Assembly: GCF_021800405.1 (NCBI RefSeq)
Contig: NZ_CP084550.1
Coordinates: 558,001-622,000 of the forward strand
Direction: 5' to 3'
DNA: 64,000 nt
From: Arthrobacter sp. FW306-07-I
Lineage (GTDB): Bacteria; Actinomycetota; Actinomycetes; Actinomycetales; Micrococcaceae
Under the pieces are notes generated by a model. The model was not told the DNA's origin. It saw nothing but the letters and a program-made list of their open reading frames with translations, and did not search any database. Numbering within the stretch: position 1 is the first letter of the stretch; the number at the start of each line of letters is the position of its first letter. Of this stretch, positions 50,571-64,000 are shown one piece after another. The position numbers were made by a program, and so were the translations under genes.

Positions 50571-51623
50571 CTACGCCGGCGCGGGGCCAGTGGACTCCCG
50601 GATAGTGAGATGGGTGGGCATGACAGCCAGTTGGCGGGTGGCGTTTCCTGACAACGGGTTGAGCTGTGCCAGGAGCATGGACACCGCCACCCTGCCCGCC
50701 TGTTCGATGGGGCTGGAGATGGTGGTCAGTGGTGGGTTGCAGAAGTCGGCGCCGAAGATATCGTCCGATCCGATAATGCTCATGTCTTGAGGGACGCGGA
50801 TGCCACGGGCCTGCAGGCGCTGCAACATGCCGATGGCCAGCAGGTCGTTGAAGACGATGCAGGCCGTTGCACCGGTCCTGACCGCTGCATCGGCAGCAGC
50901 AGCCCCCGAAGTAGTCTTCGGGGTGTAGGGGCCAATGCGGTGCACTTCCATTCCACGCTTGGTCGCATCCTCCTCGAAGACCTTCCACCGCATCTGGTTG
51001 GACCATGAGGTTGGTGGGCCTGCGACGTAGCAAACCTTGTGATGGCCCAGCGAGGCCAAGTGCTCCAGTGCCTGGATGATGGCGGAGGGCGTATCGATCA
51101 TCACGGTCGGAGCGCTGGTGGAAGCACGGTTGAAGGTCACCAGGGGCTGCGACTGTGAGACCTCGGCCAACTGGGCGTCCGACAGGCGGGAAGCAGCAAG
51201 GATGAACCCGTCCGCGGATTTCCGCATCTTATGCAGCGCGTCCAGCTCCATCTCGCTTGACTCCTCGGTGTCCACCAGGAGCTGGGTGACGCCGGCGGCC
51301 TTGAGTTGGTGCTGCGTGCCCCGGATGATGTCGAAGTAGAACGGGTTGGTGATGTCGGGAACCAGCACTGCCACTGCATTGGTCCGGCCCGAACTGAGCC
51401 CACGCGCTTGGGAACTGGGGACGTAGTTGAGGTCCGCTGCCGCTTCCTCGATCCGCACCCGGGTGCGGGGATTCACGCGGTCCGGCCGGGCGAGGGCACG
51501 TGACACGGTGGAGGTGGCGACCCCTGCGAGCTCGGCAACGTCGCGGATGGTGGGCGGCCGGTCCCGCTGTGCGCCCACGTCAGGACTGGCTTGGCGTGAC
51601 GCCTTCATTGTCGGGTCTGCCAT
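50571..51623 (-). CDS. LacI-family transcriptional regulator
   Basis: 350 residues. The N-terminal helix-turn-helix TIRDVAELAGVATSTVSRALARPDRVNPRTRVRIEEAAADLNYVP and the periplasmic-binding-protein-like core (VAVLVPDITNPFYFDIIRGTQHQLKAAG ... GSDDIFGADFCNPPLTTISSPIEQAGRVAVSMLLAQL) define it. Divergent from the sugar ABC/uronate operon, with an operator-like palindrome over the operon promoter; it therefore probably represses the operon until its sugar ligand is present. ATG at 51623. Confidence 0.93.
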   Translation of the reverse strand: MADPTMKASRQASPDVGAQRDRPPTIRDVAELAGVATSTVSRALARPDRVNPRTRVRIEEAAADLNYVPSSQARGLSSGRTNAVAVLVPDITNPFYFDIIRGTQHQLKAAGVTQLLVDTEESSEMELDALHKMRKSADGFILAASRLSDAQLAEVSQSQPLVTFNRASTSAPTVMIDTPSAIIQALEHLASLGHHKVCYVAGPPTSWSNQMRWKVFEEDATKRGMEVHRIGPYTPKTTSGAAAADAAVRTGATACIVFNDLLAIGMLQRLQARGIRVPQDMSIIGSDDIFGADFCNPPLTTISSPIEQAGRVAVSMLLAQLNPLSGNATRQLAVMPTHLTIRESTGPAPA

Positions 51624-51729
51624 CGCTGTGGCCTTTCCTCGCGGACCGGAATCGCCGGCCAAGTGGGGCCTCCAAGGCTACTCGCCGCTGGATGCCTGAT
51701 GCACCTATCTGAGCATTTATGGCAACTTT

Positions 51730-51843: not shown

Positions 51844-53205
51844 ATGAGGTTTAAATCGACTACTGGGCTCGCGGCGATTGTCACGGCTGCAGCACTGGCC
51901 CTGACCGGTTGCGGATCAGGCTCCGGTTCCGGAGGGGGCGGCTCCACCAACGCCGATGGGAAGGTGGACGGTACGGGCAAGACGCTCAACGTCCTGGTGG
52001 GCGTCCTGAGCCAGTACCCCGAGCAGCAGAAGCAGTGGCAGAGCGATATAGCGGCCAAGTTCAAGGCTGAGACCGGCGCGGACGTAAAGTTTGAAACCTT
52101 CGCTTCGGCCAACGATGAGCTCACCCGCATCCAGACGTCGGTGGTATCGGGCCAGGGCCCGGATATCTACGGACTTGGCACAACATTCACCCCCACGGCC
52201 TACGCCACCAAGGCGTTTGTCACCCTCTCCGATGACGACTGGAAGAAAGTTGGCGGCAAGGATCGCTTCAACCAGGCCGCCCTGGGCATCTCGGGCCCGG
52301 ACAAGGACCACCTGGCCGGCATCCCGTTCGTCAGCCGGCCCTTCGTCATGGCCTACAACAAGGACCTGCTGGCAGCGGCAGGCATCGACAAGCCCGCCAC
52401 CAGCTGGGATGAGCTGGCAGCCCAGGCCAAGAAGATGACCAACGGCGACACCTACGGCATCGCCACCGGCTACAAGGACAACTACGATCCCTGGAAGTTC
52501 ATCTGGGCCATGTCCGTGCAGGCCGGCAACCCGCTGGTGGACGGCAACAAGCTGAGAATGGATGACCCCACGGTCAAGAAGGCCTACCAGACCTACTTCG
52601 GCTGGTTGACCCAGGACAAGGTTGTTGACCCCGCGTCCGTGGGCTGGAGCAACAGCAACGCTGTGGCGGCCTTCGCCAGCGGCAAGGCCGGCTACCTGAT
52701 GATGACCACGTCCAGCTCCATCCCCACCCTCGACAAGTCCGCAGTTGCGGGCAAGTACGAGTACACCCTGATGCCCACCATCGCACCGGGTGAGACCCAG
52801 TCCAAGTCCGACGGCGATGCCGCCAGCATCCTGTCCGGCGACAACCTGGTGGTGGCTGACTACTCCAAGCAGAAGGACCTGGCCTTCGCGTACATCAAGC
52901 TGATCACGTCCAAGGAAGAGCAGCTGAACTACCAGAAGACCTTCGGTGACCTGCCCGCGAACGCCGAGGCGCTTGCCAGCCTGACGGATCCCAAACTGAA
53001 GCCGCTGGCCGATGCCGCTGCCAAATCCAAGGCAACGCCGTTCACCGGTGCCTGGGGCGACATCCAGCTGGGACTGCTCAACGTCACCGTCCAGTCCGTT
53101 CCTGACCTGGCCGCCGGCAAGGTGGACGAGGCCGCCCTCGAACAAAGGATCAAGGACGCCCAGAACAAGGGCCAGGCATCCCTGGACCGGGCCTCCAAAG
53201 GATAA
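51844..53205 (+). CDS. extracellular solute-binding lipoprotein of a sugar ABC transporter
   Basis: 453 residues. Signal peptide with lipobox ALTGC (Cys23), then a Gly/Ser-rich linker and a family-1 (MalE-like) binding fold: LNVLVGVLSQYPEQQKQWQSDIAAKFKAETGADVKFE, FVSRPFVMAYNKDLLAAAGIDKPATSWDELA. First gene of the operon; captures the substrate that the two permeases import. AGGAG lies upstream of the ATG at 51844. Confidence 0.92.
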   Translation: MRFKSTTGLAAIVTAAALALTGCGSGSGSGGGGSTNADGKVDGTGKTLNVLVGVLSQYPEQQKQWQSDIAAKFKAETGADVKFETFASANDELTRIQTSVVSGQGPDIYGLGTTFTPTAYATKAFVTLSDDDWKKVGGKDRFNQAALGISGPDKDHLAGIPFVSRPFVMAYNKDLLAAAGIDKPATSWDELAAQAKKMTNGDTYGIATGYKDNYDPWKFIWAMSVQAGNPLVDGNKLRMDDPTVKKAYQTYFGWLTQDKVVDPASVGWSNSNAVAAFASGKAGYLMMTTSSSIPTLDKSAVAGKYEYTLMPTIAPGETQSKSDGDAASILSGDNLVVADYSKQKDLAFAYIKLITSKEEQLNYQKTFGDLPANAEALASLTDPKLKPLADAAAKSKATPFTGAWGDIQLGLLNVTVQSVPDLAAGKVDEAALEQRIKDAQNKGQASLDRASKG

Positions 53206-53211
53206 GTTCTG

Positions 53212-54222
53212 ATGTCAACCGACGCCTCACATGAAGTCCGGCCCGCGGCAGATACCGCCGCGGGCCGGGCGCCCCAAAACGTCCCCGATTCCGGGCAGCA
53301 GCACGGCCACGAGGGCGGACTGCGCCGCAAAGGCCTGAGCGAACGAAACCGCCCCCTCTGGATGCTTATCCCCGGCGGCACCCTGATGATCATCATCATC
53401 GTGGTACCGCTCCTGCTGGGCATCTACATGTCGGTCCTCAACCTGGACCAGTACACCCTGCGGAAATGGATCAGCGCGCCGATCATCGGAGTGGAAAACT
53501 TCGTTGAAGCGATTACAGCTTCGCCGCTGCTGCACGCCGTCTGGCTCAGTGTCAGCTACTCGCTGCTGGCCATGGTGGTGACGCTGCCGCTGGGCATTGC
53601 CGCCGCGGTTGCCACGCAGAACGCGTTCAAGGGCCGGGCAGTGATCCGCTCGATCTTCCTCATCCCGTACGTCCTCCCATCCTTCGTGGTGGCCACCGTC
53701 TGGCGGACCATGCTCCAGCCCGGCGGAATCGTGGACGAGGCCCTGGCCACCGTGGGCATTCACGTCGGGCTGTGGCTCAACGGGCCGCAGACCTTTTGGA
53801 CACTGGTCCTGGTCCAGATTTGGGCCTCCTGGCCGTTCATCTACCTGTTGGCGCTGTCCGGCCTCCAGTCCGTGGACCACGAAGTACATGAAGCTTCGGC
53901 CCTGGACGGGGCACTGTGGTGGAACAAGCTGCGGTACGTGATCTTCCCCTACCTGAAAGGCCCGCTGTCGCTGGCCTTCCTGATCGGGATGCTGCACCAC
54001 ATCAACAACTTCACCCTTCCGTTCGTGCTGTTCGGCGTTCCGGCCCCGGCCGACGTCGAAGTCCTGCCCATCCTGACCTACGTCACCAGCTTCCAGAGCT
54101 TCCGCTTTGGCCTGAGCGCCGCCATGGCCTTCATCTCCCTGGTGCTCATCGCCATTCCGCTGTTCGTCTACCTCCGTGCCGTCAAGCTTGACGACGCCGA
54201 AACACCTGGAGCAAAGAAATGA
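53212..54222 (+). CDS. ABC transporter permease, MalF-like
   Basis: 336 residues with about six helices after a 45-residue polar N-terminus. The cytoplasmic EAA loop reads EVHEASALDGALWWNKLRYVIFPYLKGP. Pairs with the MalG-like permease that follows (ATGA overlap). A sugar ABC importer normally needs an ATPase; none is in the operon. Confidence 0.93.
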   Translation: MSTDASHEVRPAADTAAGRAPQNVPDSGQQHGHEGGLRRKGLSERNRPLWMLIPGGTLMIIIIVVPLLLGIYMSVLNLDQYTLRKWISAPIIGVENFVEAITASPLLHAVWLSVSYSLLAMVVTLPLGIAAAVATQNAFKGRAVIRSIFLIPYVLPSFVVATVWRTMLQPGGIVDEALATVGIHVGLWLNGPQTFWTLVLVQIWASWPFIYLLALSGLQSVDHEVHEASALDGALWWNKLRYVIFPYLKGPLSLAFLIGMLHHINNFTLPFVLFGVPAPADVEVLPILTYVTSFQSFRFGLSAAMAFISLVLIAIPLFVYLRAVKLDDAETPGAKK

Positions 54223-55142
54223 GCACCACGACAGCCACCCGGCGGAGTGCCCCAGCCTCTGACATCGACCGTCCGGGCTCGCACCGGCAGCACGAGGTGC
54301 TGCGGCTGCTCCCGACCCCGCTGCTGATTTTCGTCCTGGTGTTCCTGGGCGCCCTGGTCCTGATCCCGGTGCTGTACATCTTCCTGGCCTCGGTGAACTC
54401 GGACATCGGCGTGGCCAACGGCGAGTTCTGGCCATCGACAGTCACATTCGAGAACTACTCAAAGATCTGGACCAGCGTGGGCCTGGCCACCGGCCTTACC
54501 AACAGTGTGTTGGTGGCGGGCGCAACCGCTGTGGTTTCCGCCGCGATGTCCATCTCCACCGCTTTCGTACTGGTCCGCTACACCTTCCGCGGTCGGCTGA
54601 CCATCCTCCGTGGCCTGCTGGCCCTGCAGTCCGTGCCCGGCACCCTGATGGTGCTGCCGGTCTTCGTCCTGTTTTCCTCGGCCGCCACCTATCTGGGGAT
54701 CCAGGTCATCGGAACCCAGTGGGGCCTCTTCGTCACCTACCTGACGTTCGCCATGCCGTTCTCCACCTGGGTGATGGTCACCTATCTCCGCGGGCTCCCC
54801 AAGGAACTCGAAGAAGCAGCAAGGATCGACGGCGCGTCCAACGTCGGAGTCCTTTTCCGCATCATCCTGCCGCTCAGCTGGCCCGGCATCGTTGTCTCCG
54901 GCATCTTCGCGTTCCTGCTCGGCTGGAACGACGTGCTGTTCGCCTCGGTGATGACGCGCCCCGAAAGCCAGACGGCCGCCGTCGCACTTCAAATCTTTGG
55001 TGCTTCCCAGGAAGGCGGCGCCATTCCCTTCTACGGCCAGATGATGGCGGCAGCCCTGGTGTGCGCCGCACCGGTGGTCATTCTCTACCTGATTTTCCAG
55101 CGTTACCTAGTAGGCGGGCTGACCGCCGGAGGAGTTAAATAA
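54219..55142 (+). CDS. ABC transporter permease, MalG-like
   Basis: 307 residues, six helices, and the EAA loop ELEEAARIDGASNVGVLFRIILPLSWPGI. Forms the transport channel with the upstream permease and is served by the binding lipoprotein. ATG at 54219 overlaps the previous stop as ATGA. Confidence 0.93.
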   Translation: MSTTTATRRSAPASDIDRPGSHRQHEVLRLLPTPLLIFVLVFLGALVLIPVLYIFLASVNSDIGVANGEFWPSTVTFENYSKIWTSVGLATGLTNSVLVAGATAVVSAAMSISTAFVLVRYTFRGRLTILRGLLALQSVPGTLMVLPVFVLFSSAATYLGIQVIGTQWGLFVTYLTFAMPFSTWVMVTYLRGLPKELEEAARIDGASNVGVLFRIILPLSWPGIVVSGIFAFLLGWNDVLFASVMTRPESQTAAVALQIFGASQEGGAIPFYGQMMAAALVCAAPVVILYLIFQRYLVGGLTAGGVK

Positions 55143-55144
55143 CC

Positions 55145-55993
55145 ATGGTTTCGACCACCCAGGTCACCTGGCAGCTGTCAGGCTTCGGCGACGAGATCGA
55201 CGACGACCCCGCAGTCCAGATCGCAGTGCTGCAGGCCCTCGGCGCCAACCACATCGAGGTCCGCAGCGCGTGGGGCACCAACATCGTGGACCTCAGCGAC
55301 GATCAGCTCCAGGCCCTCGCGTCCCTGCTGTCGGAGAAGGGCATGAAGGTTTCGGCCATCGCTTCCCCGATTGGCAAGGTGGACGTCAGCCTCCCGGTGG
55401 AGCACGAAGTGGAGCGGCTGCGCCGTGCCGTGAATGCGGCCAAGGTCCTGGACGCCAGGTACATCCGCATCTTCTCCTTCTACTACGGCGAGTCCGTGCA
55501 GGTGGAAAGCATCCGCGACGCTGTCATGGAGCGCATGCGGGCCCTCGCCGATGTGGCGGAGGAAGCGGGTGTGATCCTCCTGCACGAGAACGAGAAGGAC
55601 ATCTTCGGGGATGTTCCGGACCGGGTCCTGGACATCATCGAGACCGTCAACTCGCCCGCCCTGAAGGTTGCCTGGGACGCGGCAAACTTCGTCCAGGTGG
55701 GGGTCAAGCCCTTCGACGAGGCATACACGAAACTGCGCCCGTACCTGGAATACCTGCAGGTCAAGGATGCACTGTTCGAGAACGGCCACGTCACGCCGGC
55801 CGGCGAGGGAGACGGTGACCTGCTCAGGACCGTGGAAGCACTCAAAGCCGACGGGTACCAGGGCTTCGCCTCCCTTGAACCGCACCTTGCGGGCGCCCAT
55901 GGGCTGGGCGGGTTCTCCGGCCCCACCGCCTTCGGCATCGCAGCCCGAGCCTTCGCAAAAGTCACCGCAGACGCAGGAGTCCAGACCGCATGA
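55145..55993 (+). CDS. sugar-phosphate-isomerase-like TIM barrel (AP endonuclease 2 family)
   Basis: 282 residues. The fold of xylose-isomerase-like TIM barrels: WQLSGFGDEIDDDPAVQIAVLQALGANHIEVRS at the start, candidate metal ligands Glu in LLHENEKDIFG, Asp in VAWDAANFVQVG and Glu in FASLEPHL. Such proteins act as sugar isomerases, epimerases, or eliminases/hydratases on 3-keto-sugars. Position next to a Gfo/Idh/MocA oxidoreductase favours the last. It overlaps that gene by 4 bases (ATGA). Confidence 0.85.
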   Translation: MVSTTQVTWQLSGFGDEIDDDPAVQIAVLQALGANHIEVRSAWGTNIVDLSDDQLQALASLLSEKGMKVSAIASPIGKVDVSLPVEHEVERLRRAVNAAKVLDARYIRIFSFYYGESVQVESIRDAVMERMRALADVAEEAGVILLHENEKDIFGDVPDRVLDIIETVNSPALKVAWDAANFVQVGVKPFDEAYTKLRPYLEYLQVKDALFENGHVTPAGEGDGDLLRTVEALKADGYQGFASLEPHLAGAHGLGGFSGPTAFGIAARAFAKVTADAGVQTA

Positions 55994-57150
55994 GCACCTT
56001 GAACGTAGCCATTACTGGATGCGGCGTCATCGGCCGCACCCACGCCGTAGCCCTCCAGTCCTTCCCGGAGGCCCGGATCGTCGCCCTCGTCGACGCCATT
56101 CCGGCGGCAGCCGAAGCGCTTGCCGATTTCATCGAGAAGCAGGGCGGGGAACGGCCCGCGCTGTACACCTCGCAGGCGGAGGCCTTTGCTGCGCAGGACA
56201 TTGACCTTGTCGCATTGGCAACGCCCAGCGGCCTTCACATCCAGCAGGGACTGGAGGTCCTGGCCGCCGGCAAGCACGTGGTGATCGAAAAGCCCCTCGA
56301 CGTGGACCTCACCCGGGCCCAGGAAATCGAGGCCGCCGCAAAGGAAGCCGCGGAAAAGGGAGTCGTTGCCTCGGTCATCAGCCAGCACCGGTTCGACCAG
56401 TCAAGCGTGGCTGTGGCGGACGCTATCGCCAAGGGACGTTTCGGCCGGCTCACCTCAGCCATCGCATCGGTGGCATGGTGGCGCAGCCAGGGCTACTACG
56501 ACTCCGGCGACTGGCGCGGCACGTGGGCCATGGACGGCGGCGGTGCGTTGATGAACCAGGGCGTGCACACCGTTGACCTGCTCCTCTGGTTCATGGGGCG
56601 CCCCGTGGAGATCCACGCGCACACCGCCCTGCTGGCCCATGAACGGATCGAAGTGGAGGACACCGCCGTAGCCACCGTCACCTTCGAAAACGGCGGACTG
56701 GCAGTCCTGCACGCCACCACGGCCGCCTACCCCGGGCTGACTGTCCGCGTCCAGCTCATGGGATCCGAAGGATCCGCCGTGGTGGACAACGACCGGCTGC
56801 AGTACTTCCACAGCAAGGACGCCGGCGGCGAGTCCGCGGACATGGGCCTCCAGGGCGGCGGCAACCAGGCCGAACAGGAACTGGCCAAGTACCCGGTGGA
56901 GGACTACAAAGCCGCGGACCCCACCACGTACCCCGCCGGGCACGTCCGCCAGTACCGGGACATTCTTGCCGCCATCGCCGGCGGCCGGCAGCCGGGCGTC
57001 ACCGTCAGTGACGCGGTCAACGCGCTCGCGGCCGTGCGCTCCGTCTACGTTTCGGCCACCCTCGGCCAGCCCGTCCTCTTCGACGACGTCCTTGCAGGCA
57101 AGTACAACGACCTTGAAGTCCGCACCGGCAGTGCGGCAGAAAGCGCCTGA
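55990..57150 (+). CDS. Gfo/Idh/MocA-family oxidoreductase
   Basis: 386 residues. N-terminal Rossmann motif VAITGCGVIGRTHAVAL, the EKPLDVDLTRA motif near 97-107 and the C-terminal GGGALMNQGVHTVDLLLWFMG with the substrate His. Members oxidise a hydroxyl of a sugar or inositol with NAD(P). Between two TIM-barrel genes it may make a 3-keto intermediate; the substrate is not determinable. ATG at 55990. Confidence 0.9.
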   Translation: MSTLNVAITGCGVIGRTHAVALQSFPEARIVALVDAIPAAAEALADFIEKQGGERPALYTSQAEAFAAQDIDLVALATPSGLHIQQGLEVLAAGKHVVIEKPLDVDLTRAQEIEAAAKEAAEKGVVASVISQHRFDQSSVAVADAIAKGRFGRLTSAIASVAWWRSQGYYDSGDWRGTWAMDGGGALMNQGVHTVDLLLWFMGRPVEIHAHTALLAHERIEVEDTAVATVTFENGGLAVLHATTAAYPGLTVRVQLMGSEGSAVVDNDRLQYFHSKDAGGESADMGLQGGGNQAEQELAKYPVEDYKAADPTTYPAGHVRQYRDILAAIAGGRQPGVTVSDAVNALAAVRSVYVSATLGQPVLFDDVLAGKYNDLEVRTGSAAESA

Positions 57151-57154
57151 CACC

Positions 57155-58060
57155 ATGAAGTTTTCAGTATTTACGGCATCAACCCCCGAATGGGCTCCCG
57201 AAGAGGCAGTGAAGCACCTCGCCGACCAGGGCTGGGACGGCGTCGAATGGCGCATCACCGACCAGGCAGAAGCAGATGCGCCAGGCTTCTGGGCCGGCAA
57301 CAGGGCCACCATCCCGCTCACCGGCATGGAGGACCACCTGGACCGGCTCGCCACCCTCACCAGCGGGGCCGGCCTGGAGTTCTCCGGCATCGGAGGGTAC
57401 GCCCGGTGTGACAACCACGCTGACGTGGACCGGATGCTGGCAGCCACGGCCAAGCTGGGCGCGGAAAAGGTTCGTGTCACCACGCTTCCGCTCGGGACGG
57501 CAGCCTGGGGCAACGAACCGGCCAGCGGCACGCCCTACCCGGAGCTCTTCGCGGCAGCCCGGCGTGACTTTGAATGGATCGCCGAGCGGGCAGCACACCA
57601 TGGAGTGAAGGCGCTGGTGGAACTCCACCACCGGACCATCACCGCTTCGGCATCCTCCGCCCTGCGGCTGCTGGACGGACTGGATCCGCAGCACGTGGGC
57701 GTCATCCATGACCTGGGCAACCTGCTTATCGAAGGCCAGGAGGACTACCTCCCCGCCTTCGAACTCCTGGGCGACTACCTGGCGCACGTCCACGTCAAGA
57801 ACGCGCTGTGGGTCAACAGCGGAGAAATCGACGAGTCCGGCGCGGCTGTCTACCGCAACGAGTGGGCTCCGCTCCGGTCAGGGCAGGGCAGTGTCCTCCA
57901 GTACTTCAAGGCGCTCGCGGCCTTTGGCTATGACGGGTGGGTGACTGTGGAGGACTTCTCCACCGAACTCCCGCTGGCCGAACGGACCGCGGACAACCTC
58001 GATTACCTGCGTTCCACGGCGGCCCTGGCAGGGCTCTCCGTCGCGGCAGGAAGGCGTTGA
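57155..58060 (+). CDS. second sugar-phosphate-isomerase-like TIM barrel
   Basis: 301 residues of the same superfamily as the gene at 55145 but diverged. The likely metal/acid-base residues are in VELHHRTIT, VIHDLGNLLI, HVHVKNAL and VTVEDFS. Its different active-site motifs suggest a different reaction from the first barrel. Weak ribosome site; ATG at 57155, four bases after the oxidoreductase stop. Confidence 0.85.
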   Translation: MKFSVFTASTPEWAPEEAVKHLADQGWDGVEWRITDQAEADAPGFWAGNRATIPLTGMEDHLDRLATLTSGAGLEFSGIGGYARCDNHADVDRMLAATAKLGAEKVRVTTLPLGTAAWGNEPASGTPYPELFAAARRDFEWIAERAAHHGVKALVELHHRTITASASSALRLLDGLDPQHVGVIHDLGNLLIEGQEDYLPAFELLGDYLAHVHVKNALWVNSGEIDESGAAVYRNEWAPLRSGQGSVLQYFKALAAFGYDGWVTVEDFSTELPLAERTADNLDYLRSTAALAGLSVAAGRR

Positions 58061-58062
58061 CC

Positions 58063-59466
58063 ATGGCACAGCCAATAGCGGACCACCCGGACCGGCTGCT
58101 GCCGGCCGATCCCGGGGTCCGGGACATCGCGCGGTCGCTCTTCAAGAAAGTGGAAGGGCTGCCCATCATCTCCCCGCATGGGCATGTGGATGCGGCAGTC
58201 ATCGAGCAGAACACGCCCTTTCCCGATCCCGCCGCGCTCCTGGTCACCCCGGACCATTACGTCACCAGGCTGATCCACGCCGGCGGGGTGCCCATGGACC
58301 AGTTGGGGCTCGGCAATCAGCCTGCTGATTCACGGGAGGTCTGGCGCCACTTCTGCGAGGCGTGGCCCAACTTTGAAGGAACGGCGTCCGGCTACTGGAT
58401 CCGGCAGGAGTTTGCCCACGTCTTTGGCCTGGCGGAGGAGCCGTCCAAGGACAACGCCGACCGGCTTTACGATGCACTCCAGGCCAAACTCTCCGAGCCG
58501 GGTTTCCGGCCGCGGGAGCTGTTCAAGGAATTCAACATCGAGGTGCTCGCCACCACCGATGACCCCCTTGACTCGCTTGACAGCCATGCCGCGCTGCAGG
58601 CGGACCCTTCGTTCGCCGCCCGCGTGCTGCCCACGTTCCGGCCGGACCAGTACCTGAACATGGCGCACCCGGCCTGGCAGGACAACGTGGAGCGCCTCAT
58701 CGGAGCTGCCGGGGACGGCGCCTCGGGCTACGCCGGCTACATCAAGGCCCTCGAGGCTCGCCGGCGCCACTTCGTGGAGCGCGGCGCGGTGTCCGCGGAC
58801 CACGGCGTCTTCACGCCCACCACGCTGAAACTGGACGACGGCGAAGCGGAGCGGCTTTTCGAGTGCGGCCGGACGGGCCAGGCGAGTGCTGCGGACCGGG
58901 ACGCCTTCGAGGCGCACATGATCTACCAGATGGCGCGGATGTCGGTGGAGGACGGTCTGGTCATGACCATCCACCCGGGTTCGTTCCGCAACCACCACAC
59001 GCCCACGTTCGAGGCCTTCGGCGCGGACACCGGCCACGACATACCGGTTGCCGTGAACTACACCGAGGCCGTGCGCCCGCTGCTGCAGGATTTCGGGACG
59101 GCGAAGGACTTCCACTTGGTCCTGTTCACCCTCGATGAGACGGTTTTTTCACGCGAACTGGCTCCGTTGGCCGGGTTCTACCCTTCGGTTTACCTTGGCG
59201 CTCCGTGGTGGTTCCTGGACGCGCCGGACGCCATGCTCCGCTTCCGTTCGGCGGTCACGGAGACGGCAGGGTTCTCCCGGTCCTCGGGCTTCATCGACGA
59301 CACCAGGGCGTTCTGCTCCATCCCCGCCCGCCATGACACGGCCCGGCGGATCGAGGCATCCTTCCTGGCCCGGCTGGTGGCAGAACATCGAATCACCGAG
59401 GAACGGGCACACGAACTCATCGTGGACATCATCGACGCATCACCACGGCGGGTGTTCAAGCTGTGA
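58063..59466 (+). CDS. uxaC: glucuronate isomerase
   Basis: 467 residues, standard UxaC length. Isomerises D-glucuronate to D-fructuronate (and galacturonate to tagaturonate). The metal ligands SPHGHVDA, the WRHFCEAWPNFEGT block, LATTDDPLDSLDSH and IHPGSFRNHHTPTFEAFG are typical. GGAAGGCGTTGACC precedes the ATG at 58063. Confidence 0.96.
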   Translation: MAQPIADHPDRLLPADPGVRDIARSLFKKVEGLPIISPHGHVDAAVIEQNTPFPDPAALLVTPDHYVTRLIHAGGVPMDQLGLGNQPADSREVWRHFCEAWPNFEGTASGYWIRQEFAHVFGLAEEPSKDNADRLYDALQAKLSEPGFRPRELFKEFNIEVLATTDDPLDSLDSHAALQADPSFAARVLPTFRPDQYLNMAHPAWQDNVERLIGAAGDGASGYAGYIKALEARRRHFVERGAVSADHGVFTPTTLKLDDGEAERLFECGRTGQASAADRDAFEAHMIYQMARMSVEDGLVMTIHPGSFRNHHTPTFEAFGADTGHDIPVAVNYTEAVRPLLQDFGTAKDFHLVLFTLDETVFSRELAPLAGFYPSVYLGAPWWFLDAPDAMLRFRSAVTETAGFSRSSGFIDDTRAFCSIPARHDTARRIEASFLARLVAEHRITEERAHELIVDIIDASPRRVFKL

Positions 59467-60890
59467 ACGCCGCCCCGCCTGCACCGGGCTCACTTCCTGT
59501 CCTGGACCGCAGCCTGAAGCCCATGCCCCAACCTCCGGTGCGCATCGTGCACCTCGGCCTGGGGGCATTCCACCGCTCCCACCAGGCCTGGTACACACAG
59601 CACGCCCCTGACGCCGCGGAGTGGGGGATCGCGGCGTTTACCGGCCGGCGCCCGGCCGCCGCAGAAGCGCTGTCGGCCCAGGACTGCCTTTACACGCTGG
59701 TGGAACGTTCGGCAGACGGGGACAGTTTCGAAGTGATCGGCAGCATCGTGGAAGCGGTGGACGGAGCCAACATCGCCCGGCTTTGTGAGCTTGTCGCGGC
59801 GGAGGAGACGGCGGTGGTCACGCTGACCATCACCGAGGCCGCGTACGGGCTTGCGGCAGATGGAACGTTCGACGGCGACGCTCCCGGTGTGGCGGATGAC
59901 CTCCGCGCGCTGTCGGCGGCGGCGTCCGGGGAAGCGGGAGTGCCCGGCACACCCTTGGGACGCCTGGTGCTGGCCCTCGCCAGGCGCCGGGACAGCGGGG
60001 CGGGACCGATCGCCGTCGTCAGCTGTGACAACCTGTCCGCCAACGGGGAGGTTGCCCGCCGCGCCGTCCTGGGACTGGCATCCGGATGGGGTTCCGGGCT
60101 GGCCGAATGGGTCGGGGCGAATGTCAGTTTCGTCAGCACCTCGGTGGACCGGATCACCCCGCGGACCACCGAGGCGGACATCGCTGAAGTCGCCGAACAG
60201 TGCGGCTACACGGACAGCTCGCCCGTGGTGGCCGAACCTTTCCGGAACTGGGTGCTCAGCGGGGATTTCCCGGCTGGACGTCCGCGCTGGGAGGACGCCG
60301 GCGCCGTCGTTGTTGCCGACATTGAGCCCTATGAGAACCGCAAGCTGTGGCTCCTCAACGGTTCGCACTCCATCCTGGCGTACGCCGGGCAGCTGCGCGG
60401 GCACGCCACCGTGGCCGACGCCCTGGCCGATCCCGCCTGCCGGAAGGCCGTGGAGGACTTCTGGGACGAGGCCGCACACCACCTGCAGGCGGCCGGGCTG
60501 GACATCCCTGCGTACCGGAAGGCGCTGCTGGAGCGGTTTGGAAATGCCCGGATCGCCCACCGGCTTGCCCAGATCGCGGCCGACGCCACCACCAAGCTGC
60601 GGATGCGCGCCGTGCCCGTCCTCACGGCGGAGCGGGCCAGCGGCCGAACCGGCAGCGGGGCTGCCCTGATGCTTGCCGCATGGATTGACTACGTGGCCGC
60701 CACCCAGGACTTCCAGGACCCGCTGGCCGAGGACATCCACGCGGCCAACGCCCTTGAGGGCAACGGGAGGGTCCAGGCCCTTCTCCGCCTGGTGAGTGCC
60801 GAGATCGCGGATGATTCCGACATTGTTTCCCTGGTGCACGGGCTGTGCGGATCCATCGCAGCCAAGACAGCCACCCCGTCACCTCTTTAG
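59463..60890 (+). CDS. uxuB: fructuronate reductase (mannitol dehydrogenase family)
   Basis: 475 residues. NAD-dependent polyol/uronate reductase. IVHLGLGAFHRSHQAWYTQ, VVSCDNLSANGEVARRAV and ENRKLWLLNGSHSILAYAG (catalytic Lys, Asn, His) define the family. The position between UxaC and ManD makes D-fructuronate to D-mannonate its step. GTG at 59463 overlaps the uxaC stop. Confidence 0.92.
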   Translation: MNAAPPAPGSLPVLDRSLKPMPQPPVRIVHLGLGAFHRSHQAWYTQHAPDAAEWGIAAFTGRRPAAAEALSAQDCLYTLVERSADGDSFEVIGSIVEAVDGANIARLCELVAAEETAVVTLTITEAAYGLAADGTFDGDAPGVADDLRALSAAASGEAGVPGTPLGRLVLALARRRDSGAGPIAVVSCDNLSANGEVARRAVLGLASGWGSGLAEWVGANVSFVSTSVDRITPRTTEADIAEVAEQCGYTDSSPVVAEPFRNWVLSGDFPAGRPRWEDAGAVVVADIEPYENRKLWLLNGSHSILAYAGQLRGHATVADALADPACRKAVEDFWDEAAHHLQAAGLDIPAYRKALLERFGNARIAHRLAQIAADATTKLRMRAVPVLTAERASGRTGSGAALMLAAWIDYVAATQDFQDPLAEDIHAANALEGNGRVQALLRLVSAEIADDSDIVSLVHGLCGSIAAKTATPSPL

Positions 60891-60929: not shown

Positions 60930-62159
60930 ATGAAAATCATTGCCGCTGATGTGTTTGTGACCAGTCCGTCCCGGAACTTCGTCACCCTCCGGATCACCAC
61001 CGAGGATGGTGTGACCGGTATTGGGGACGCCACGCTGAACGGTCGCGAGCTGGCGGTTGCCGCGTATCTGCGGGAGCATGTGGCGCAGTTGTTGATCGGG
61101 AAGGATCCGCACCGGATTGAGGATACGTGGCAGTTCCTGTACCGGAGTGCGTATTGGCGGCGGGGTCCGGTGACGATGGCGGCGATCGCTGCGGTGGATA
61201 TGGCGTTGTGGGATATCAAGGGCAAGCTGGCAGGGATGCCGGTGTACCAGTTGCTCGGTGGTGCTTCCCGGAGCGGGTTGCGGGCGTACGGGCATGCCTC
61301 GGGGGCCGATATTGAGTCGTTGTTTGATTCGGTGCGCGAGCATTTGGAGTTGGGGTATAAGTCGATCCGGATCCAAACCGCAGTTCCAGGCATCAAGGCT
61401 GTGTATGGGGTCGCGGCGCAGGCCCAGGCGTCGGGGGAGCGGTATGACTATGAGCCGGCGGGCCGGGGTGCGTTCCCGGTGGAGGAGGACTGGGACACCA
61501 GGGCGTACCTGCGGCATTTGCCTTCGGTGTTTGAGGCGGTGCGGAATGAGTTCGGTCCGGAGATCCCGTTGTTGCATGATGGGCATCACCGGATGACGCC
61601 GATCCAGGCGGCGAAGCTGGGCAAGGCCCTGGAGCCCTATGATCTGTTCTGGTTGGAGGACTGCACGCCGGCGGAGAACCAGGAGGGGCTGCGCCTGGTG
61701 CGCCAGCACACCACGACGCCGCTGGCGATCGGGGAGATCTTTAATACGGTGTGGGATTACCAGACGCTGATCAAGGAGCAGCTGATTGATTACGTCCGGG
61801 CGGCGTCCACGCACTTTGGCGGGATCTCCCCGTTGAAGAAGGTGATGGATTTCGCCGCGCAGTACCAGATCAAGTCCGGGTTCCATGGGCCGACGGATAT
61901 TTCCCCGGTGGGGTTCGCGGCGCAGCTGCACGTGGGGTTGGCGATCCACAACTACGGGATCCAGGAGTACATGCAGCATTCGGTGAAGACCAACGAGGTG
62001 TTCGAGCAGTCCATGACGTTCGTGGACGGGTACCTGCACCCGGGCGACAAGCCCGGCATCGGCGTGGAATTCAACGAAGAAGCCGCCGCAGCTTACCCGT
62101 ACCAGCAGGCCTACCTGCCCTACAACCGCCTCGTCGACGGCACCGTCCACGACTGGTGA
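60930..62159 (+). CDS. manD: D-mannonate dehydratase of the enolase superfamily
   Basis: 409 residues. Dehydrates D-mannonate to 2-keto-3-deoxygluconate. The ManD-type residues Arg147 and Tyr159 are present, with the metal ligands Asp217 (LLHDGHH), Glu243 ([10 protein letters not shown]) and Glu269 (AIGEIFN), and the later catalytic GFHGPTD His. The central 1 kb has more T/G-ending codons (TTG, GGG, GAT) than its neighbours; the ends look normal. GGAAGGAACAG precedes the ATG at 60930. Confidence 0.95.
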
Positions 62160-62228
62160 AACCGGCCCGCGGCCGGTAAGAATGCCCACGGCTGAAAACT
62201 GCCCATACGGGTGAGAAGGAAAATTTCG

Positions 62229-64000
62229 GTGAACAACAACAACCCCACCCCTGCCAAACCCCGTGTTGTGGTCATGGGGGTCTCCGGCTGCGGCAAGACA
62301 ACGGTGGGCGGCCTTGTGGCCCGCGAACTCGGCGTCCCGTTCCTCGACGGCGACTCCCTGCACCCCGTGGAGAACGTGGCCAAGATGGCGGCGGGCCATC
62401 CGCTGACCGACGAGGACCGCTGGCCCTGGCTGACGATCGTGGGCCGCGAGCTGGCTGCCGCCGGGGACAGCGGGCTGGTCCTGGCCTGTTCCGCGCTGCG
62501 GCGAACCTACCGGGACGCCATCCGGGAACAGGCTCCGGACACCATCTTCCTGCACCTGAACGGCAGCAAGGAGGTCCTCGCCCAACGTGTGGGCGGCAGG
62601 GCCGGGCACTTCATGCCACCCGCGCTGCTGGACTCCCAGCTCGCCACCCTCGAACCACTGCAGGAGGACGAGCGCGGCGTGGTGGTGGACATCGCCGCGC
62701 CCGTCCCGGAAGTCGTGGCCGGGGCACTCAAGGGGATTGCCGCCGTCGTACCTTCCGCCACGCGGGAGCAGGGCAGCCGGCCGCGGCAGTTCGACGTCGA
62801 CCTGGCCGCCGCCCCGTTCAATCTCGACGACGACGCGGTCGCCTGGGTGGAGGGCACCATTGGTGCGATGACGCTCGAGGAGAAGATCGGGCAGCTGTTC
62901 ATCAACCACAACAACGACTACTCACCCGGGTACCTCGACGGGGTGCTGGAGAACTACCACGTGGGCGGCATGCGTTACCGTCCGGGTCCGTCCGCTGCGG
63001 TGCAGGAACACATCCGCTACGCGCAGTCCAAGTCCCGGATTCCGTTGCTGGTTGCGTCCAACCCCGAGATGGGCGGGGCCGGCAGCTGCGACGACGGAAC
63101 GTTCGTATCCACGCATCTGCAGGCGGGCTCGCATCCGGACAAGAACATTGCCCGGCAGATGGGGCAGGTGGCCGGGGTGGAGACGGCGGCCCTGGGCTGC
63201 AACTGGGCCTTCGCACCGATCGTGGACATCCACTACAACTGGCGGAACACGGTCATTTCCACTCGCTCCTTCGGCAACACGCCGGAAGTTGTGGTGGAGC
63301 GGGCCAAGGAGTACTTCGACGGCATCAGCGAATCACCCACGGCATGCGCCATGAAGCACTTCCCGGGGGACGGTGTGGATGAGCGGGACCAGCACGTGGT
63401 CACGTCCTACAACACCCTCCCCTATGAGGAGTGGAACCGGACGTACGGACACGTGTACCGGGAGATGATTGCGCATGGCGTGCAGTCCATCATGGCCGGC
63501 CACATCGGGGCGCCGGAGGTATCCCGGCATTTCCGGCCCGGGCTGTCCGACTCCGAGGTCCTGCCTGCCACGTTATCCCCGGAACTCCTGCAGGACCTGC
63601 TGCGCGGGGAGCTCGGGTTCAACGGCCTGGTGCTCACCGACGCTTCGCAGATGGTGGGGCTGACCCAGGCCATGAGGCGCAAGGACCTGGTGCCTGCCAC
63701 CATCGCGGCGGGCTGCGACATGTTCCTGTTCTTCCGGAACCCCGCCGAGGACTTCCAGTACATGATGGACGGCTACAAGTCCGGGATCATCACCGAGCAG
63801 CGGCTGCATGATGCGCTGCGACGGATCCTGGGATTGAAGGCGTCGCTGGGGCTGCACCGGAAATCTGCTGATGAGCTGGTTCCGCCTGCCGAGGCGCTTG
63901 CCGTTATTGGGTCTGCTGAGCACCGTGCCGTGGCCGCTGAGATTGCAGACAAGACGGTGACGCTGGTCAAGGACACGGCCGGCAACCTGCCCATCACGCC
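62229..64000 (+). CDS. gluconokinase joined to family 3 glycoside hydrolase (cut by window end)
   Basis: An open frame of at least 590 codons from the GTG at 62229 (GAGAAGGA upstream), with no stop before the end of the window. Residues 1-177 are a GntK/IdnK gluconokinase: Walker A GVSGCGKTT, FLDGDSLHPVENVAKMAAGHPLTDEDRWPWL, ACSALRRTYRD, and HFMPPALLDSQLATLEPL. From about 185 the frame runs on as a NagZ-type GH3 enzyme: MTLEEKIGQLF, KHFPGDGVDERDQH (Asp387/His389 dyad) and the nucleophile Asp471 in VLTDASQM. No signal peptide, so cytoplasmic. The frame was checked at several points across the joint; a sequencing error there cannot be excluded. Confidence 0.85.
   Translation, partial: MNNNNPTPAKPRVVVMGVSGCGKTTVGGLVARELGVPFLDGDSLHPVENVAKMAAGHPLTDEDRWPWLTIVGRELAAAGDSGLVLACSALRRTYRDAIREQAPDTIFLHLNGSKEVLAQRVGGRAGHFMPPALLDSQLATLEPLQEDERGVVVDIAAPVPEVVAGALKGIAAVVPSATREQGSRPRQFDVDLAAAPFNLDDDAVAWVEGTIGAMTLEEKIGQLFINHNNDYSPGYLDGVLENYHVGGMRYRPGPSAAVQEHIRYAQSKSRIPLLVASNPEMGGAGSCDDGTFVSTHLQAGSHPDKNIARQMGQVAGVETAALGCNWAFAPIVDIHYNWRNTVISTRSFGNTPEVVVERAKEYFDGISESPTACAMKHFPGDGVDERDQHVVTSYNTLPYEEWNRTYGHVYREMIAHGVQSIMAGHIGAPEVSRHFRPGLSDSEVLPATLSPELLQDLLRGELGFNGLVLTDASQMVGLTQAMRRKDLVPATIAAGCDMFLFFRNPAEDFQYMMDGYKSGIITEQRLHDALRRILGLKASLGLHRKSADELVPPAEALAVIGSAEHRAVAAEIADKTVTLVKDTAGNLPIT

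Follow-up and report, generated by a model that had tools for sequence, protein, structure and literature searches.

A gluconokinase-family kinase fused to a phosphorylase-like family 3 glycoside hydrolase at the end of a uronate operon in Arthrobacter

Introduction

What might a bacterium gain from joining a sugar-acid kinase to a glycoside hydrolase in a single polypeptide? The question is raised by a gene of Arthrobacter sp. FW306-07-I that begins near the end of the 64,000-nucleotide stretch of DNA analysed here (contig NZ_CP084550.1, positions 558,001 to 622,000; hereafter the window), in which a kinase of the GntK/IdnK (gluconokinase) family is followed in frame by an enzyme of glycoside hydrolase family 3 (GH3). 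The original prediction, made from the letters of the window, had described this fusion and proposed that one protein both frees a sugar acid and phosphorylates it. The answer that we prefer, tentatively and with a probability of about 0.4, is that the protein has two enzymatic domains and works in the cytoplasm, in the catabolism of glucuronides and glucuronate.

A kinase and a GH3 enzyme in one reading frame

The kinase–GH3 fusion is real. The gene lies on the forward strand and starts with GTG at 62229, 8 nt behind a Shine–Dalgarno-like AGAAGGA (62214–62220), and its frame runs free of stops through the end of the window (62229–64000) to a stop at genome base 622529, giving a protein of 766 amino acids on which TIGR01313 and PF00933 both score above their cut-offs. 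In a panel of 150 genomes of the genus, where the window genome is designated G000, 88 carry an essentially full-length, unbroken match, and the fusion is therefore neither chance nor error. Eight more genomes have broken or partial copies (an internal stop in G070, a match ending at 712 in G053, one starting at 54 with an internal stop in G131, and broken frames in G013, G050, G052, G092 and G146). These could be held to favour an artefact of annotation or assembly, in which two genes have lost the stop between them, but the one open frame in 88 independent genomes already refutes this, and we regard such an artefact as having a negligible chance of being correct. Genome counts for the fusion, and those given below for UidA, UidB and the kinase of 2-keto-3-deoxygluconate (KDG), were read by eye from match listings and then recounted. 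The loci fetched for closer analysis are a non-random choice of 71 of the 88 intact fusions; that all 71 are in frame restates the 88, since they were picked among intact copies.

As predicted, there is no stop between the domains. The linker (residues 166–190; 62724–62798) varies in length among relatives and is predicted to be loose, with a pLDDT (predicted local distance difference test score) below 50 at residues 176–187 in a structure model of P0001. The in-frame start codons closest to the junction lie within the two domains, GTG163 at the end of the kinase and GTG207/ATG214 inside GH3. A junction start codon of some sort is present in 37 of the 71 fetched loci and has a Shine–Dalgarno-like stretch ahead of it in just two, so that an internal start yielding a separate GH3 protein is not general.

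Both families are known, but their fusion is apparently undescribed: in those parts of the literature that a search could reach, no description of a kinase–GH3 fusion was found. In the accessible portion of a paper on Arthrobacter sp. PAMC25564, Table 2 enters a GH3 gene at 226049-223737 as a beta-glycosyl hydrolase (PMC8171050), and this gene matches the fusion of one genome of our panel (G046).

Spread and origin of the fusion

Fused frames occur in genomes named Pseudarthrobacter, Arthrobacter, Paenarthrobacter and Specibacter, and the best 120 of 6550 protein-database matches are all 750–786 amino acids long, with kinase and GH3 domains. Homologues are thus not all separate genes, though in Arthrobacter wenxiniae the kinase and GH3 are indeed separate adjacent genes with their own starts, 37 bases apart. 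Another GntK-like frame follows the separate GH3 gene of that species (L173:3422-3916). In Arthrobacter agilis 4041 the GH3 half (L172:827-2755) carries a linker tail, RQFDVD, but its neighbours are different and its 1-kb flank gave no kinase match. Across the order, a GH3 match (E 1e-60) was found in 29 of 396 genomes, six of them of the genus itself (four known to be fused, the other two having open frames 806 and 810 amino acids long), while the 23 outside the genus showed no kinase match within 1.5 to 10 kb either side. GH3 proteins with 72–73% identity are present in Cryobacterium, Microcella and Microterricola, with no kinase within a 1-kb flank. At another locus (L045:11283-12137) a stand-alone GH3 gene is divergent to a gene for a TIM-barrel isomerase 66% identical to that encoded at 55145-55993 of the window, and two Cryobacterium loci (L176, L178) have a similar layout, as judged by eye.

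The kinase is also found alone. Among the 19 higher-scoring kinase-only loci listed, which come from fewer genomes (two loci each in G065 and G048, whilst G074 and G046 also carry the fusion), the lone kinase lies behind the gene for D-mannonate dehydratase, ManD, in 17, the place that the fused gene takes at other loci. In G002 the kinase lies away from ManD, and behind it comes a short stub of GH3 that terminates at a stop, indicating that the GH3 half has been lost at least once; no GH3 remnant was seen in the other 17 unfused loci tested. A tree of the kinases mixes fused and lone forms, and a single origin of the fusion was set aside: 11 label changes are needed, at least five of them on starred branches, on a tree where 43 of 88 inner branches are weak. 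We infer that adjacent genes became fused and that the GH3 half was later lost at least once. Mean pairwise identity among the 71 fused proteins is 77% in the kinase half and 89% in the GH3 half.

The kinase half

The kinase domain (residues 13–165; 62265–62723) scores 184.6 bits against the GntK/IdnK subfamily model TIGR01313 (cut-off 113.75) and stays below the equivalog models for E. coli-type gluconokinases (135.9 against 265 bits and 126.8 against 304 bits). It is of the P-loop type, with GVSGCGKT at residues 17–24 (62277–62300), and no PfkB family, as would mark a PfkB-type KDG kinase, is among its domain matches. In the alignment of fused kinases most motif residues are kept, with G17, V18, C21, G22 and K23 near-invariant. 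A strict P-loop pattern was found in 56 of 71 loci, an undercount arising from strict patterns and trimmed alignments, for which the alignment is the better check.

The GH3 half and its phosphorylase-like relatives

The GH3 half contains an N-terminal TIM-barrel domain (residues 215–535; 62871–63833; PF00933, 198.5 bits, cut-off 27) and is complete, residues 191–766 aligning to its closest solved relative in fold search and alignment, the beta-glucoside phosphorylase BglP/BglX (5VQD); the fold-search rows span this half only and carry no information on the kinase. The putative acid/base dyad Asp387-Gln-His389 (63387–63395) and the putative nucleophile Asp471 (63639–63641) are intact, as had been claimed: Asp387, His389 and Asp471 are kept in 104 of 104 aligned rows (all 71 fused and all 33 stand-alone ones, the latter representing 24 distinct genes). 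The dyad aligns with the DQH of 5VQD and the DSH of YbbD, and Asp471 with their nucleophile, so that the fusion shares the His/Asp pair of BglP/Nag3-type phosphorylases. Asp381 in KHFPGDG (63369–63371), noticed earlier as replacing the common GHG histidine, does so, but is normal for the subfamily, being found in every row and in 5VQD. Judged on these likenesses, the GH3 half is phosphorylase-like, a relationship that escaped the original prediction even though its call of a GH3 enzyme with intact motifs was right.

The GH3 half may use either water or phosphate, the dyad allowing the latter. The part of a 2022 review available to us lists two characterised GH3 phosphorylases and holds that the His/Asp pair admits phosphate, making some GH3 enzymes phosphorylases (PMC8950772). 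The idea that a WRN loop close to the sugar site is a carboxylate mark special to the fused clade was rejected, as this loop is also present in relatives encoded beside beta-phosphoglucomutase. LpqI, a NagZ-type GH3 enzyme, presumably carries the same His/Asp pair. It is a hydrolase and not a phosphorylase, according to the accessible text of the paper describing it, which weighs against a general His/Asp rule (PMC6572805).

A second line of evidence comes from Demequina, where GH3 lies directly behind a beta-phosphoglucomutase-like gene at 11 of 15 loci and shares one stop-free frame with it at nine of these 11 (L031, L030, L032, L033, L034, L036, L037, L038 and L044). TIGR01990 scores 207 and 212 bits at two of these loci (cut-off 189.4), and database proteins with Opitutaceae names show the same mutase–GH3 architecture. 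Beta-phosphoglucomutase uses beta-glucose 1-phosphate, and its adjoining position therefore favours phosphorolysis in this GH3 subfamily.

The uronate operon

The fused gene is the last of a uronate operon, which bears out the tie that had been proposed. Directly upstream lies the gene for ManD (60930–62159; NF043051, 690.6 bits, cut-off 550), preceded by one for a fructuronate-reductase-like (UxuB-like) protein with Mannitol_dh domains (59463–60890; NF011611, 284 bits, below the cut-off of 603) and by that for the glucuronate isomerase UxaC (57937–59466; NF002794, 562 bits, cut-off 387), whose real start is probably further in. Ahead of these, also on the forward strand, are genes for a TIM-barrel isomerase, a Gfo/Idh oxidoreductase and a second TIM-barrel isomerase (55145–58060; PF01261, PF01408 and PF01261) and for an ATP-binding cassette (ABC) sugar transporter comprising a binding protein and two permeases (51844–55142; PF01547 and twice PF00528), with a divergent LacI-family regulator on the reverse strand (50571–51662; PF00356). 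The operon points to beta-glucuronides as the substrate. The window genome contains a second ManD copy, 99% identical (60930-62159 against L066:11270-12499), whose neighbours encode a galactonate dehydratase, an aldolase-like protein and a PfkB kinase.

At the 71 fused loci the gene adjoins uronate genes wherever the flank was covered; the glucuronide transporter UidB is encoded in 37 (nine of them also with UidA), an ABC set in 21 (one of which also has UidB) and neither in 14. Fifty-nine genomes have UidB above the cut-off, of which 53 carry the fusion (35 of these without UidA) and six do not, all six having UidA; Fisher's test for UidA against the fusion gives p = 0.003 when genomes are counted and 0.007 when operons are.

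What the fusion might do

In the reading that we prefer, beta-D-glucuronides (or closely related compounds) would be imported and then split intracellularly by the GH3 half, in the manner of UidA; the freed glucuronate would pass to UxaC, UxuB and ManD, and the kinase half would phosphorylate an acid further along that pathway. The cytoplasmic setting, already part of the original prediction, is suggested by the ATP-dependent kinase at the N-terminus. Because the lone kinase is kept behind ManD without GH3, its substrate is probably in the mannonate dehydratase pathway; KDG is the most likely candidate, otherwise gluconate. KDG is the product of ManD and a KDG kinase the next known pathway step, as stated in the section available to us of one paper (PMC6353982). 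Outside the genus, the kinase is directly behind ManD in five of 33 listed loci (Rhodoglobus, two Tersicoccus, Cryobacterium and Microbacterium). The two halves would thus work at opposite ends of the pathway, and fusion would give equal supply without channelling. A single protein that releases a sugar acid and then phosphorylates the very acid it released is possible but has no support from the operon, since the expected glycosyl unit, glucuronate, goes to UxaC rather than to the kinase, and since the lone kinase stays behind ManD where no GH3 exists.

Several observations weigh against the glucuronide reading. The relatives of BglP type suggest glucose, not glucuronate, as the sugar. At the other 28 of the 33 kinase loci outside the genus, no ManD gene lies within 1 kb, and G000 has PfkB KDG-kinase-like and aldolase-like genes elsewhere (both below model cut-offs) plus a second GntK, so that a KDG role of the fusion is not needed there. 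A close orthologue of that PfkB kinase is present in 37 of the 88 genomes with an intact fusion (G095, with a partial match of 66%, being scored as lacking it), and an aldolase for 2-keto-3-deoxy-6-phosphogluconate was not found at E 1e-20 in 15 of the 150 genomes, 10 of these with the fusion. Only two or three independent UidB/UidA pairs occur on the tree, none significant, and kinship may therefore explain the pattern of UidA and fusion. The fusion is also frame-broken in two of the 35 genomes with UidB but no UidA (G013 and G146). UidA and the fusion share an operon at nine of 71 loci, and of the 17 loci where a lone kinase follows ManD, 12 lack both UidA and GH3 within the stretch examined; on these counts the GH3 half was rejected as a strict replacement for UidA.

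The kinase and a plain hydrolase could instead have been joined for co-expression alone, a true gluconokinase and GH3 acting on separate substrates with no metabolic coupling. The split genes of A. wenxiniae, at least one loss of GH3 from a locus that retained the kinase, the mixing of fused and lone kinases on the tree and the hydrolytic LpqI (as far as PMC6572805 could be consulted) would all suit this, but the two are joined in 88 of 150 genomes and stand beside uronate genes wherever the flank was covered, and we consider it doubtful, if still a serious contender. We think it unlikely that the halves form a tandem in which GH3 phosphorolyses a beta-glycosyl-gluconate (for example a cellobionate-like aldobionate) to beta-glucose 1-phosphate and gluconate, and the kinase converts the latter to 6-phosphogluconate, turning one disaccharide into two sugar phosphates on a single polypeptide. 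The kinship to BglP, the His/Asp pair, held to permit phosphorolysis in what is accessible of PMC8950772, the Demequina loci and the gluconokinase family of the kinase are consistent with such a tandem, as is a stand-alone relative (72%) followed, perhaps by chance, by 6-phosphogluconate dehydrogenase; moreover, a GH94 cellobionate phosphorylase and a gluconokinase are a known pair, on the evidence of the available part of PMC4537572. The operon, however, serves glucuronate, the kinase is retained without GH3 at kinase-only loci, and none of the 150 genus genomes has a match to beta-phosphoglucomutase (TIGR01990, E 1e-35), although enzymes of looser haloacid dehalogenase (HAD) families, which lay outside that search, could serve. 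Likewise unlikely, in our estimate, is the broader proposal of a self-contained phosphorylase–kinase class, in which GH3 would phosphorolyse an acidic disaccharide, the GntK half would phosphorylate the freed acid and both products would leave as sugar phosphates; if true, this would mean, taken with the mutase fusions, that GH3 phosphorylases form a subfamily given to repeated fusion with the enzyme that uses one of its own products.

Comparison with known systems

A conserved kinase–GH3 fusion in a glucuronide operon, together with a separate mutase fusion, is a testable clue to the function of this GH3 subfamily, bearing on whether the in vivo substrates of such enzymes are glucuronides or aldobionates. 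With the GH2 beta-glucuronidase UidA, the GH3 half shares its proposed role and operon position, but the families are unrelated and the two coexist at the nine loci noted above. SN243 is a beta-glucuronidase that we take to be filed in GH3. In structural alignment, its structures (7QE1, 7QEA) match the GH3 half with 19–20% identity. The kinase shares the P-loop, HP, DR.PWL, CSAL and HFMP segments of the GntK/IdnK gluconokinases (TIGR01313; PDB 3T61 and 1KNQ) but differs in being joined to GH3, in its place behind ManD and in having a substrate that is putative only. BglP/BglX (PDB 5VQD and 5VQE), a retaining beta-glucoside phosphorylase of GH3, has no kinase, and a segment near the sugar site differs, SNPEMGGAGS in the fusion taking the place of CNLERGGSG. 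The fusions of Demequina and Opitutaceae belong to the same GH3 subfamily (39–43% identity over the GH3 half) and join GH3 to an enzyme for which the GH3 product would be the substrate, but the partner is another enzyme, acting on the other side of the reaction.
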